In this document: positions 26,510 through 38,637 of the stretch, piece after piece | Layout of the letters: the number at the start of each line of letters is the position of its first letter | Numbering within the stretch: position 1 is the stretch's first letter | Assembly: GCA_017961285.1 (NCBI GenBank) | Contig: JAGCXO010000044.1 | Span: 1 to 38,637, forward strand | Source: Alphaproteobacteria bacterium | Lineage (GTDB): Bacteria; Pseudomonadota; Alphaproteobacteria; RF32; CAG-239 | DNA length: 38,637 nucleotides | Direction: 5' to 3' | Made by a program: the position numbers and the translations under genes | Notes under the pieces: model-generated | Databases searched by the model: none | Told to the model about the DNA's origin: nothing | Seen by the model: only the letters and a program-made list of their open reading frames with translations

Positions 26510-26653
26510 TTGTATTTTCTCAAAGTTCGTGATTTTACTACATGCTACAATACTAAATGCACAAAGTAAATACCCCAAAGTTTAGAAAATTTCCCAAAAT
26601 GCGCATTTTCAAAAAACGAAGATTTGAATTCAGTTATGTGTTTGGAAATAAAA

Positions 26654-26680
26654 GAAAAAACGGCAGTTTTTATATCTGCC
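26654..26680 (-). terminator. Terminator of tRNA-Glu
   Basis: GGCAG (26676-26680 read on the minus strand) pairs with CTGCC (26662-26666) across a 9-base loop, followed on the minus strand by GTTTTTTC. It starts 8 bases after the encoded CCA end of the tRNA. Confidence 0.7.
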
Positions 26681-26688
26681 ATTTGTAT

Positions 26689-26764
26689 TGGTGATCCCAG
26701 CGAGACTCGAACTCGCGTTACCGCCGTGAGAGGGCGATGTCCTAGACCGCTAGACGATGGGACC
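26689..26764 (-). tRNA. tRNA-Glu (anticodon CTC)
   Basis: The 76-base sequence on the minus strand folds as a standard tRNA. The acceptor stem GGTCCCA/TGGGATC has one G-T pair, the anticodon stem is TCGCC/GGCGG with loop CTCTCAC and anticodon CTC (codon GAG), and the T-arm is GCGAG-TTCGAGT-CTCGC. The 3' CCA is encoded. In an AT-rich genome a separate CTC isoacceptor is less expected than TTC. Confidence 0.95.
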
Positions 26765-34248: not shown

Positions 34249-36180
34249 TCATCTTTGTGACGATCTGTTATTATCTATTTTCAGACGAAGCAATGCATTT
34301 TCACGCACTTTTTGCCACATTTTTACGCCATTTTCTTTTAAGACCTCAAAAAATTCGCGAAACTTTTCGTTATTACCGCAAACAATATCCTTAACCGACG
34401 GCAGAGACTTGCCTGATATAGAATTTTTAACACCATTAACAATTGCGTTACCCGCCATTCCCAAGATTACCTGTCCCTCTTTGCTCAACCCGCTATGGTT
34501 TAGATTATAACCCAAAAAATTATGCTGTGAAACCCTTCCCATCGTTGGTGTTAAAAACATTTCTCCTTGCTTTTCGGGAAAATAACTCAGCATAACCTCG
34601 TCTTTTATAGACATTACGCGAATTTCTTTTTCAAAATTGTTATAGTGCTGAATATCTTTATCTTTTGCCGAAACAAAAGAAATCATCGTTGATTTAGATA
34701 CTCCGAGCGGAGCATATGGCGAATGTGCCACACAGAGCAATTCGTGCTGAATTTTTTCTCGTTCCTGTGCCGAATATCCGAGCTCAACCATTTTCTCTTG
34801 CATTTTTTCCTCCAGTTTGAGAAAAGTATAAGCTCCATGGCAATGAGCGAGCACTGTCATTTTTCTGATTCTTCTGCAAGCCTCATCAACACTCAAACGT
34901 TTTCCGTCTTTATCACTTATGCGGTTCAAAAACATTTTCTTAAACAAATTATCAACATAAAACGGGTGCAAAGTATCGTCATTCGGCTGTCTGTCCAGTT
35001 TTATATCATGATGATAATCCTGCATCATTTTTTGACGGGCCAGTTTATCATCAAACGACGGCCCCTGATTATTCATCTCTCCAAAATCATAGACAGCAAC
35101 ATATAGGGCTACATCTTCGTTCACACCATTTGCACGCAACAAGGCTTCCAAAGGAGACAAATAGCCGTTTGCCCTTTGCTCCGAAATTGTGCCATTTCCG
35201 CCCAAAAACAATATAGAATTATCATCTGTGTCAACTTCATCAACGCTCACAAAACCATAAGGGTTACTTTCTGTCTTTCCCACACGTTGCCCGACATAAG
35301 AACTCGAAGCAAACTCATCAGATCGCCCCATTTTTCTGCAAGCGATTCGCTTTGATGCGGAATTATTTGCCCTGTTTCTCATTCCTTGCTTAATTATATC
35401 ATCAATCCTATTTTTATCCGGATAATCTTCACGAATTGAGCCCAACACTTCATAAGCCATCGTCAGAGCAGAAGCATCCTGTCTGATACTTCTGATATAT
35501 GCACACATAATGTCGAGACACTCCGGTATTTTGCGTTCATCTTCGTTAGCTATAATAGCAATATTTTGATACAATCTGCAAAAATCAGTCGTCTTTTTCG
35601 GTGTAAATTTTTTAATTTTATCCCAAACTTCATCTCTCATAGATGGTTTTTCAGTATAAATTTTTCCCAACTGAGCAAAGAACATTCCTTTCAGCTCCGG
35701 CTCAAGATTGTCGGTCTTTTTTATCATTGCCGAAGTCTCATCATCAGTAGCATGGATGACAGCGGTAGTCATATTTTTTATAAAAGGAGCATAAAAGCCT
35801 TGCAAATCATCACGATAAGGAATTTTTTTAATTTTATCTACCATCCGATCAAAAATAATTTCCGAACACTTTGGGTTTTGAGCACAAATAAAAACAGCCC
35901 CCCTGTCTATCAAAATTCCTTTTTCTTCTTCATCTATTTTAGCAATCATCTCTTTTATTTGCGGTTTCGATAAATCCTTGGTCATCAAAGCAAAAACATC
36001 AGCCGCATCAGGAATCATATCAAAGCGAGATCCTTTTCCTTCGAGCAAGCGACAAAAATCCGGAAACAGCGAACTTGCCAGCTCGGGATTTTTATTTAAC
36101 TTTTCTCGCATTTGTCGAAATAAATCGGCATGTTCCAAAAAACTCAAAGCCTCAATATCCGCCACTTCCTTAACTTCCAT
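34249..36180 (-). CDS. Large unknown protein with possible alpha/beta-hydrolase-like C-terminal half
   Basis: The 643-residue protein has no signal peptide or membrane helix. The first 310 residues are helical and repeat-like. From about 320 the sequence changes: SILFLGGNGTISEQ (324-331 looks like an oxyanion-hole loop), VALYVAVYDFGEM, then MTVLAHCHGAYTFLKLEEKM with C447 in an xCxG elbow. CVAHSPYAPLGVSKSTMISFVSAKDKDI and a histidine-rich VSQHNFLGYNLNHSG follow. The order strand-elbow-helix, acid, histidine resembles an alpha/beta hydrolase with cysteine as nucleophile, but I cannot place it in a known family. It is divergent from the 11-codon ORF promoter region. Confidence 0.68.
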   Translation of the reverse strand: MEVKEVADIEALSFLEHADLFRQMREKLNKNPELASSLFPDFCRLLEGKGSRFDMIPDAADVFALMTKDLSKPQIKEMIAKIDEEEKGILIDRGAVFICAQNPKCSEIIFDRMVDKIKKIPYRDDLQGFYAPFIKNMTTAVIHATDDETSAMIKKTDNLEPELKGMFFAQLGKIYTEKPSMRDEVWDKIKKFTPKKTTDFCRLYQNIAIIANEDERKIPECLDIMCAYIRSIRQDASALTMAYEVLGSIREDYPDKNRIDDIIKQGMRNRANNSASKRIACRKMGRSDEFASSSYVGQRVGKTESNPYGFVSVDEVDTDDNSILFLGGNGTISEQRANGYLSPLEALLRANGVNEDVALYVAVYDFGEMNNQGPSFDDKLARQKMMQDYHHDIKLDRQPNDDTLHPFYVDNLFKKMFLNRISDKDGKRLSVDEACRRIRKMTVLAHCHGAYTFLKLEEKMQEKMVELGYSAQEREKIQHELLCVAHSPYAPLGVSKSTMISFVSAKDKDIQHYNNFEKEIRVMSIKDEVMLSYFPEKQGEMFLTPTMGRVSQHNFLGYNLNHSGLSKEGQVILGMAGNAIVNGVKNSISGKSLPSVKDIVCGNNEKFREFFEVLKENGVKMWQKVRENALLRLKIDNNRSSQR

Positions 36181-36359: not shown

Positions 36360-36400
36360 TTAAGCACTATCTCCGATCAATATTTCAATTTTCATAATTC

Positions 36401-36447
36401 AACAAAAAAATCCTGACCAAAGGACAGGATTTCTTTTATTGGTCGGG
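36401..36447. repeat. Copy A of the 'tRNA 3' end plus terminator' unit
   Basis: Hairpin AAATCCTG/CAGGATTT (36408-36432) with T-runs on both strands, joined to TTGGTCGGGCAG, which on the minus strand reads CTGCCCGACCA, like a tRNA 3' end. It matches copy C (37592-37637) at nearly every base, including the spacing from CCA to the hairpin. It can end the 11-codon transcript (+) and the orphan 234-residue gene (-). No complete tRNA is attached. Confidence 0.75.
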
Positions 36448-36553
36448 CAGATACCCCATAAATCAGGAAAATGATACCATATAAATTATCTGTACTTTTA
36501 ATTTGATATTTTTATTCAAAGTTTGAGCAATCTCTATCAAAGATGAACAAATA

Positions 36554-37258
36554 TTATTTGCCAAGAACTCTCTGTGGGGAACACTGTGAAATATTCAAAC
36601 TTCGTTTTTCTAATGTTGCCTTCTTCTTATTAATCAAATCATTAATAAGCTTTTTGTTGTCTGATGAAGGAATTGATTTATAAGTAGATTCAAAATTAAT
36701 AACACTACTATCAGCAATTTTTTTTATTCGTTCTAAAGTTTCAGTATTACAATTTTCAGTATTTAAAACATTTATAATATTTTCTAAAGCAAAAGTCAGA
36801 TATGACTTTCCTCTCTCTTCATTATTTCTATATTCTTCAGGTATATTAAAACCAAAGTTATCTCTTGTTTTTCCATTAAAATCAGATGTTGAGCCAAAAA
36901 TCAAACAATCATTCATACTTTCCGCAATTGTCAAAGCGCTATTTATATGCAAAGAAGTTACTTTTTCCTCATTAAGCAACAAATTTTCGATTTTTGCAGA
37001 TTTCCGCTCATTATAAAAAGCATTAAAAACATATTCTGTATATGGACATTCATCATTTTGTTTTTCAACGTTATAATCTTTCAATGCATCAAGAGAAGTC
37101 TCCTTTTCCCTAATCTCAAGATTTTCACTAGAAAAAGAAGCATCATATTCATATGTATCATGATTATAGCCGGACCATATAGCTTTCTGAACAATATTAT
37201 TATTTACCTTCAAATAAACACGACCATATCTGAGATCTAAATAGTAATATTCTTTCAT
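36554..37258 (-). CDS. Orphan protein of unknown function in tRNA-Pro-linked islet
   Basis: From the ATG at 37258 (upstream GGAAAGG) the product is 234 residues beginning MKEYYYLDLRYGRVYLKVNN. It has an N-terminal beta-rich part, then a helical, charged and asparagine-rich half, without a signal peptide or membrane helix. Cysteines are few. Base use is even more AT-rich than its neighbours. No family is recognised. It is bracketed by tRNA 3'-end copies with terminators and has a near-consensus promoter of its own, so it looks like recently gained cargo. A longer frame to 37324 includes the promoter and is not the gene start. Confidence 0.68.
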   Translation of the reverse strand: MKEYYYLDLRYGRVYLKVNNNIVQKAIWSGYNHDTYEYDASFSSENLEIREKETSLDALKDYNVEKQNDECPYTEYVFNAFYNERKSAKIENLLLNEEKVTSLHINSALTIAESMNDCLIFGSTSDFNGKTRDNFGFNIPEEYRNNEERGKSYLTFALENIINVLNTENCNTETLERIKKIADSSVINFESTYKSIPSSDNKKLINDLINKKKATLEKRSLNISQCSPQRVLGK

Positions 37259-37292
37259 TTTATTACCTTTCCATAGCCTAAAACACATTTTT

Positions 37293-37321
37293 ATTGTATC
37301 AAAATAACAAACTTTTGTCAA
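37293..37321 (-). promoter_or_regulatory. Near-consensus promoter of the orphan gene
   Basis: On the minus strand TTGACA (37316-37321), a 17-base spacer and TACAAT (37293-37298), 34 bases before the start codon. This matches the sigma-70 consensus almost fully. Confidence 0.75.
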
Positions 37322-37431
37322 CATTTTTTAAGCTGACAGAAAGTAGCAAACGACTTATAGTTCTACAATAAAAGTGAGAGCAAAAAGTAGTAGCCTAAGG
37401 GCTGTAAAAGAATAAGAGATTGATATATAAC

Positions 37432-37457
37432 AAAAAAGCCGCCATTAAAGACGACTT
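37432..37457 (-). terminator. Terminator of copy B
   Basis: On the minus strand AAGTCGTC pairs with GGCGGCTT (8 pairs with two G-U) across a 6-base loop, followed by a T-run. It lies directly after the tRNA-3'-end-like sequence of copy B. The upstream transcript it would end is not a complete tRNA. Confidence 0.6.
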
Positions 37458-37464
37458 GTTAAAT

Positions 37465-37590
37465 TTGGTCGGATTGACTGGACTACTTCGTTCACTGCGC
37501 TCATCGGCTTTGCCGATCGGCGTATTCTCATCCGCCTTTCGCTTGTAGCCAAACCAGCTTTTTCGCTAGTTCTCGTTCACCAACACGTTA
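37465..37590. repeat. Copy B: tRNA-Pro 3'-end fragment fused to a GC-richer hairpin element
   Basis: This GC-richer 126-base stretch begins TTGGTCGGATTGACTGGACT, which differs at 3 of 20 bases from the 3' end of the neighbouring tRNA-Pro, then departs from it. The rest holds the hairpin ATCGGC-TTT-GCCGAT and two related phrases (TTCGTTCACTGCGCTC and TCTCGTTCACC). On the minus strand, CGGATGA about 65 bases from the end could pair with CAATCCG as a weak acceptor-like stem. No D- or anticodon arm is seen. It is non-coding in all frames. Confidence 0.6.
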
Positions 37591-37593
37591 CAA

Positions 37594-37623
37594 CAAAAAA
37601 ATCCTGCCACAAGGGCAGGATTT
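37594..37623 (-). terminator. Terminator of tRNA-Pro (copy C)
   Basis: On the minus strand AAATCCTGCC pairs with GGCAGGATTT (10 pairs; 37614-37623 and 37599-37608), with a run of T after it. It starts 8 bases after the CCA of tRNA-Pro. It is nearly identical to the hairpin of copy A, 1.2 kb away. Confidence 0.85.
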
Positions 37624-37630
37624 CTTTTGT

Positions 37631-37707
37631 TGGTCGAAGTGACTGGACTCGAACCAGCGACCTCTGCGTCCCGAACGCAGCGTTCTACCAGGCTGAACTA
37701 CACTTCG
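37631..37707 (-). tRNA. tRNA-Pro (anticodon CGG)
   Basis: The 77-base minus-strand sequence has a perfect acceptor stem CGAAGTG/CACTTCG, a D-arm GTTC-GAAC, the anticodon arm CTGCG-TTCGGGA-CGCAG with anticodon CGG (codon CCG), and T-arm GCTGG-TTCGAGT-CCAGT with one G-T pair. The 3' CCA is encoded. A tRNA gene like this is a common integration point for mobile DNA. Confidence 0.95.
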
Positions 37708-38595: not shown

Positions 38596-38605
38596 TAAAG
38601 TTAAA

Positions 38606-38637
38606 GGAAGGATTTGAACCGATAGGCTCGCTAAGCA
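38606..38637. repeat. Inverted fragment of the tRNA-fMet T-arm at the window end
   Basis: GGAAGGATTTGAACC (38606-38620) is the exact reverse complement of 38533-38547 inside tRNA-fMet. It then runs into GATAGGCTCGCTAAGCA and off the window. Layout resembles copy B, where a tRNA 3' part in minus orientation is fused to GC-richer sequence. Confidence 0.5.

Follow-up and report, generated by a model that had tools for sequence, protein, structure and literature searches.

What put three copies of a tRNA 3' end around a gene of no recognised family, and is that gene the cargo of a small integrated islet? We addressed this question in an alphaproteobacterial contig of 38,637 nucleotides (the window, that is, the whole stretch of DNA that was analysed). 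The host gene, tRNA-Pro(CGG), was identified by ARAGORN and by Rfam model RF00005 at window positions 37631-37707 on the minus strand, which is the strand of every feature below unless stated otherwise. The tRNA runs directly into a hairpin terminator, as the initial annotation of this DNA had read it (copy C, 37591-37630, delimited from the sequence; a scan for terminator-like hairpins assigned its stem to the plus strand). Copy A (36400-36448) consists of GCCCGACCA, which is a piece of 7-9 bases of the tRNA-Pro end, followed by a terminator nearly identical to that of copy C. The near-identity of A and C over about 45 bases, also claimed in the initial annotation, is borne out by an ungapped comparison in which 41 of 46 positions agree; the local score is 70, and none of 100 shuffled 4.4-kb regions scored above 26. 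Its picture of three copies of one tRNA-end-plus-terminator unit survives in part: the repeats are real and A and C share a terminator, but the hairpin next to copy B (37429-37460, found by the terminator-like scan) is unrelated to it, so that only A and C have the same one. Neither is copy B a shortened version of that unit, as had been supposed. Instead, it repeats tRNA positions 59-76 over 18 bases and ends in CCA (37466-37483; 16 of 18 bases identical to the corresponding segment of the upstream tRNA, 37631-37648 as read from the sequence), and it terminates a longer element at 37466-37572. The DNA on the 5' side of copy B is structured and has nothing in common with the body of a tRNA.

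Read in the sense of the tRNA, elements of this kind follow a fixed order. After a terminator comes the 5' strand of the T-stem in inverted orientation, then a short loop, the same strand in direct orientation up to A58, a core of 65-100 bases, tRNA positions 59-76 with CCA, and a second terminator; the structured element measures roughly 150 bases. In the window, the copy C hairpin is the proximal terminator, standing between tRNA-Pro and the element. It is followed by hairpin H1 (37550-37572, from sequence comparison with tRNA-Pro), in which a loop separates the inverted copy of the T-stem strand (37565-37572) from the direct copy that ends at A58 (37550-37558). The core (37484-37549), derived from covariation and a covariance model that we call R1, is a three-way junction with hairpins P2 (37519-37536), which has a GNRA-type tetraloop, and P3 (37504-37516). 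Copy B closes the element, and the hairpin at 37429-37460 lies 3' of it as a distal terminator. R1 matches the window at 37492-37558 (E = 3.1e-19), this copy having been among the sequences on which the model was trained.

We compared this anatomy with that of the tRNA-linked repeats (TLRs) of E. coli, whose defining feature is that their final 18-19 bp repeat exactly the 3' end of the tRNA or 5S gene that precedes them. There are 22 copies at ten E. coli loci, and they have been known since 1978 and have no known function, with Egan and Landy 1978 and Rudd 1999 named as the sources (PMC8144298). Within nine tRNA and rRNA loci of E. coli K-12 (16.3 kb), the TLRs of serX, tyrT and tyrV are organised like the element described here, down to an inverted copy of the T-arm and a break that follows A58, and we therefore file the element as a TLR. 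Like the E. coli repeats, it stands right behind a tRNA, has a last 18-19 bp that match the tRNA 3' end and occurs in tandem copies; a terminator between tRNA and repeat is likewise found at serX. It differs from them in core sequence and in the arrangement of its hairpins. The small RNAs rrA, rrB and rrF of E. coli rRNA operons, which belong to the TLR family, are also short structured RNAs between two terminators that end in a copy of the 3' end of their host gene (PMC8144298), but they stand behind 5S rather than behind tRNAs and their core is not matched by R1. When the 16.3 kb were searched with R1, the top seven of eight matches were the serX and tyrT/tyrV TLRs, weakly at 11-16 bits, and the TLRs of argQ/Z/Y/V (argQ-argV) and rrnB, which have a different core, were unmatched. 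Given these weak matches and misses, common descent of the cores described here and the E. coli TLR cores is probable, not proven. We found no statement in PMC8144298 on TLR mobility, a T-loop breakpoint or presence outside the Enterobacterales.

Evidence that TLRs are insertions comes from glutamate tRNAs. Using as a query the window's tRNA-Glu(CTC) with its flank (26560-26764), which lacks a TLR, we obtained split matches at tRNA-Glu(TTC) in three genomes (G000, G001 and G004). In these, the tRNA matches first and the match resumes at least 150 bases later at query base 60, which is the start of the 18-base segment. Genome G005 has a tRNA-Glu(TTC) without a TLR, and its 3' flank matches the DNA that follows the TLR in the filled genomes (scores of 133 for G000, 103 for G001 and 95 for G003) and not the DNA directly after their tRNA (14, 22 and 19, respectively; maxima with shuffled flanks were 25 for G000 and 27 for G001). 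A paralogue in the same genome, tRNA-Glu(CTC) without a TLR, also shares the post-TLR flank (53 versus a shuffle maximum of 30). The filled sites of G002 and G004 gave no flank match with G005, their flanks being too diverged to tell. Because the empty-site flank of G005 corresponds to the post-TLR flank, the TLRs are insertions, in which the TLR and the proximal terminator are the new DNA and the distal tRNA end and its flank are the old. Resting on three species pairs at a single tRNA, Glu(TTC), these comparisons show that a TLR inserts into the 3' part of a tRNA gene with an 18-base duplication that regenerates the tRNA. The initial annotation was thus right that repeats of a tRNA end mark an integration here, but proof of insertion is available for the TLR between C and B and not for the segment with the orphan gene. 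The tRNA-Pro(CGG) site itself varies in the genus, with a TLR in G000, G002, G003 and G012 and an empty site in G006 and G008.

The element is widespread, all of the genomes analysed being metagenome assemblies. In the window's own genome it recurs behind tRNA-Pro(GGG), tRNA-Glu(TTC), tRNA-Gly(CCC), where it is in tandem, and tRNA-Ala(GGC), with a further copy behind an orphan tRNA-like 3' end, such that six or more tRNA sites carry it. These copies end in the 3' 18 bases of the local tRNA, exactly or with few changes, and in the 1.2-Mb assembly all seven exact matches of the motif belong to this kind of element. All 13 genomes of the genus contain the motif. They hold 34 distinct units, 32 of which have a tRNA upstream, typically 76-86 nt away (80 nt for the unit behind tRNA-Pro in the window), and the units have 3' ends cognate to Leu, Trp, Glu, Arg, Ser, Pro, Gly, Asn, Gln and Ala tRNAs. 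At the end of the contig, a TLR-like start, GGAAGGATTTGAACCGATAGG, stands behind a tRNA-Met gene (window 38603-38637, plus strand); it is the inverted T-arm of that tRNA-Met, and the contig stops there. Assemblies often break at repeats.

At the level of the family, we used R1 as a model of the TLR core; copies from the genus trained R1 and so match it by construction. R1 finds the core in 117 of 126 genomes and in 15 of 16 genera, at 0 to 20 copies per genome. To examine anatomy we relied on 110 evaluable family units that were found by pattern alone, blind to tRNAs. In this set, 98 units lie at most 700 nt behind a tRNA, representing 23 anticodons, and 84 of the 98 sit 57-102 nt behind it. 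The 18-base copy is perfect in 45 of the 98 and has one or two changes in further units, and comparison of unit ends with other tRNAs mostly gives 7-9 differing positions. Tandem units occur at L005, L056, L057 and L058 and in 14 family cases spaced 235-302 nt apart. This breadth of anticodons and genomes within one family is unlike the situation of the TLRs in E. coli, and behind 5S rRNA no TLR was seen among the units of this family. The element thus follows many tRNAs, mostly with no variable DNA between tRNA and TLR, a distribution at odds with the idea in the initial annotation of a unit that brackets variable DNA. Cargo inside the TLR was considered at L049 and L044 and rejected; the genes downstream there are ordinary or on the other strand, and the two loci therefore look like decayed units.

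Elsewhere in the class, only two genomes outside the family match R1, G299 and G297. G297 is a 0.9-Mb genome of a distant alphaproteobacterial family, and its two units (L266 and L270), which follow tRNA-Glu and tRNA-Arg, are built in the same way around a related core; hence the element extends beyond a single family. Among named records, the motif occurs in gut and rumen Alphaproteobacteria or unspecified proteobacteria, including Azospirillum sp. CAG:239. Matches of GACTACNAGCGAAAGSC in viral contigs (n = 35) were discarded, all of them being chance matches in unrelated, coding-like sequence. At the curated gathering score, only the tRNA and tmRNA models of Rfam match the window and four TLR loci. 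We also compared the cores with one another, and their mean identity is 0.81 at different tRNAs within a genome versus 0.77 at the same tRNA across genomes. That cores are more alike within genomes suggests that TLRs spread within genomes.

We next consider how each TLR comes to resemble the tRNA it follows. Among 84 family units, the direct copy of the T-stem strand is exact to the local tRNA in 63 and the inverted copy in 69, and for other tRNAs the rate is about 4% in both cases. Together with the 18-base end, a TLR therefore carries three segments cognate to its own tRNA, placed around a conserved core with compensatory changes. The possibility that the spacer contains the entire tRNA 3' end in inverted form was also considered and rejected, since the acceptor strand is at chance (8.5 mismatches with the own tRNA versus 9.0 with others); the inversion is limited to the T-stem strand and excludes the acceptor strand. 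An inverted and then a direct T-stem strand is the pattern expected of fold-back copying, and tandem units are common, both of which would follow if TLRs arose by replication slippage or strand switching at the terminator hairpin, with the plus-minus-plus order as a scar, the core incidental and no dedicated mobility. We regard this as improbable, because the core is conserved and homologous at unrelated tRNAs and must be carried from site to site, and because the inverted copy reaches into the acceptor strand no more often than by chance.

The same tailored segments bear on a more familiar type of insertion. Repeats of a tRNA 3' end are the classic signature of integrative islands (Islander, PMC4383910), which restore the 3' end of the tRNA on insertion while displacing the original one, with crossover subsites that include the T loop (PMC4383910). 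The TLRs resemble these islands in that the native 3' flank is displaced and the gene regenerated, as the empty and filled tRNA-Glu(TTC) sites demonstrate. They are unlike them in having neither integrase nor cargo, in measuring about 180-200 bp, and in carrying segments that match each different tRNA, where such an island has one fixed attP. Could copies A, B and C nevertheless be the ends of a single tyrosine-integrase islet in tRNA-Pro, with the C-B element merely a part of it? Besides the classic signature (PMC4383910), this would account for an orphan gene present in a single genome of the 13 in the genus and for CCGACCAA at both B and A. Yet in the family the C-B element is found behind tRNAs of 23 anticodons with no such gene, and at the tRNA-Pro(CGG) of G002, G003 and G012 it stands without the islet; its tRNA-tailored segments are inexplicable by a fixed attP, and no integrase gene is present in the TLR or in the segment from A to C. 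We therefore consider a single islet very unlikely. No mobilising protein was identified for the TLR either.

The core has the marks of a structured RNA. Both sides have changed in 10 of 18 pairs, against 5.1 in shuffles, 88.9% of cells can pair compared to 78.4% in shuffles, and the covariation score of 0.235 falls to 0.080 on shuffling and is lost when the partners are slid. The P2 loops in the alignment are mostly of the GNRA kind, which speaks for an RNA, and of 200 shuffled versions of the window TLR, 196 fold less well than the original (z = -2.37). A resemblance of the three-way junction to a hammerhead, noted by eye, was dropped because the conserved ribozyme core is absent. In E. coli, transcription between two terminators and binding to Hfq and CsrA are described for the three TLRs that follow 5S; rrB, which binds both proteins, and RttR are transcribed TLRs (PMC8144298). 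Compensatory changes, GNRA-type loops, a better fold than most shuffles and these transcribed relatives are what one would expect if the TLR were mainly a functional small-RNA gene under selection, co-transcribed with its tRNA and acting as RNA. We find this possible but doubtful. Occupancy varies within the genus, tRNA-Pro being empty in two genomes and occupied in four others, copy number ranges from none to 20, deletion of E. coli TLRs gives no clear phenotype (PMC8144298), and the structure may equally serve movement. We lean instead, with moderate confidence, toward a small and structured element that is mostly selfish and exploits tRNA genes, some copies of which may have taken on a domesticated role as RNAs.

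Taking these observations together, we think it very probable that the segment from C to B is a TLR, that is, a non-coding insertion at the T-loop between A58 and position 59. On insertion, the TLR duplicates the last 18 bases of the tRNA, so that the tRNA keeps a complete 3' end and the original end, with its terminator, comes to lie roughly 180-200 bp away. The TLR may be a small selfish element, or one that is tolerated, whose spread within genomes would depend on machinery acting in trans. By analogy with rrB of E. coli, it may at least at times be transcribed through read-through of the proximal terminator. The duplicated tRNA ends could then act as landing sites for cargo, and the orphan gene between B and A would most likely be a late islet of this sort. 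That each copy matches its own tRNA is not explained by a plain tyrosine integrase, so a process that copies the target is needed, and such copying might proceed by template switching or through RNA. Positions 59-76 of a tRNA are the piece that primes retroviral reverse transcription, and they also form 18-base tRNA fragments in eukaryotes. As the TLR involves the same 18-base segment, an RNA-templated route is conceivable. A bolder proposal, which we rate as rather unlikely, is that TLRs are a distinct class of mobile element whose core inserts at any T-loop while the insertion copies the T-stem strand and the 18-base end of its target; copying segments of the target itself would free the element from any fixed target and never harm the tRNA. 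It is speculation to read TTCGA as a target-adjacent motif and the 18 bases as the guide of a guide RNA.

We now return to the orphan gene. It encodes 234 residues in an open reading frame at 36554-37258, within a candidate islet of 1026 bp (36440-37465) that runs from copy B to copy A with CCGACCAA at both borders, although the assignment of these borders is uncertain. As first described, it belongs to no recognised family: there is no match in Pfam, NCBIfam or PADLOC and only chance-level similarity in PHROG, no relative of the protein was found in phages, plasmids or viral contigs, and its predicted structure is unreliable (mean pLDDT of 47). The near-consensus promoter ascribed to it is present upstream of the gene as TTGACA-17-TACAAT (37293-37321, 11 of 12 matches), but promoter-like sites near the gene are no more frequent than in shuffles. 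The gene is absent from the 12 other genomes of the genus and so is not conserved in place, and among 152 genomes of the family we found it only once more, as a broken C-terminal fragment (L274). Presence in one of 13 genus genomes fits an islet, and the gene may be a 1-kb islet inserted at the tRNA end of the TLR; the small islet of the initial annotation thus keeps its variable gene but has ambiguous borders. Adjoining the islet, a 643-residue protein (34249-36180) has no significant Pfam match, and the genes downstream of the tRNA-Pro site differ in G002, G003 and G012.

The ambiguity stems from copy B, whose flank resembles that of G011 and could be the native flank of tRNA-Pro. If so, the orphan gene would be no islet, and copy A would be a remnant stranded from another TLR array that has decayed. 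The 18 bases of copy B are those of the tRNA-Pro(CGG) end of G009-G011 (CAATCCGACCA), over 60 bases its flank is 80% identical to the DNA that follows the last tRNA-Pro end of G011, and similar terminators are found behind other displaced tRNA ends (L315). Against this, in G002 and G003 a second copy of the proximal terminator comes immediately after the TLR end, the arrangement of copy A without an islet, and this fits an islet between B and A. We treat a native flank as a credible possibility, if a somewhat less than even one, and continue to prefer the late islet.

The wider context of TLRs in the family favours an islet site, because displaced tRNA ends occur elsewhere with defence genes. 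Family TLRs that have no adjacent upstream tRNA mostly come after a tRNA 3' end that has been displaced, and in four of the cases examined defence genes lie in the DNA preceding this end: an RT-protease at L159, Gabija GajB with HEC-05 at L224, a Hachiman-like helicase with HEC-05 at L195 and a DNA methylase at L220. HEC-05/GmrSD and methylases are among the defence genes at these four loci. In another instance, in the window's own genome (L104, contig C49 of G000), an orphan tRNA 3' end and a TLR with its core at position 1679 of the reverse complement neighbour a gene that is DNA cytosine methylase-like by sequence, with the rest of the island on another contig.

TLRs of the present kind share the genus with two other types of repeat. 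The tRNA-Pro(CGG) of G009-G011 is occupied by a second type (L254 in G009, L253 in G010, where it is in tandem, and L256 in G011), which differs in its core, breaks close to the variable loop and repeats a 30-base tRNA end preceded by an inverted tRNA copy. A third type stands behind tRNA-Glu(CTC) in G012 (L289), G006 (L290), G001 (L291) and G005 (L296); it has the form GGTGATGCGTAGCG...GAAGCTAGACCACC, is in tandem in G001 and lacks the 18-base tRNA end.

What is new here is the family-wide spread of TLRs outside the Enterobacterales, their common anatomy and the proof of insertion by an empty site. This lineage, in which a genome can carry up to 20 copies, 23 anticodons are represented and close species offer both empty and filled sites, is a large natural data set in which the mode of movement, and the choice between a selfish element and a small RNA, become directly testable. 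In addition, displaced tRNA ends that are linked to TLRs and flank anti-phage genes can help to find new defence genes, and such flanking gives the 234-residue orphan a plausible context.
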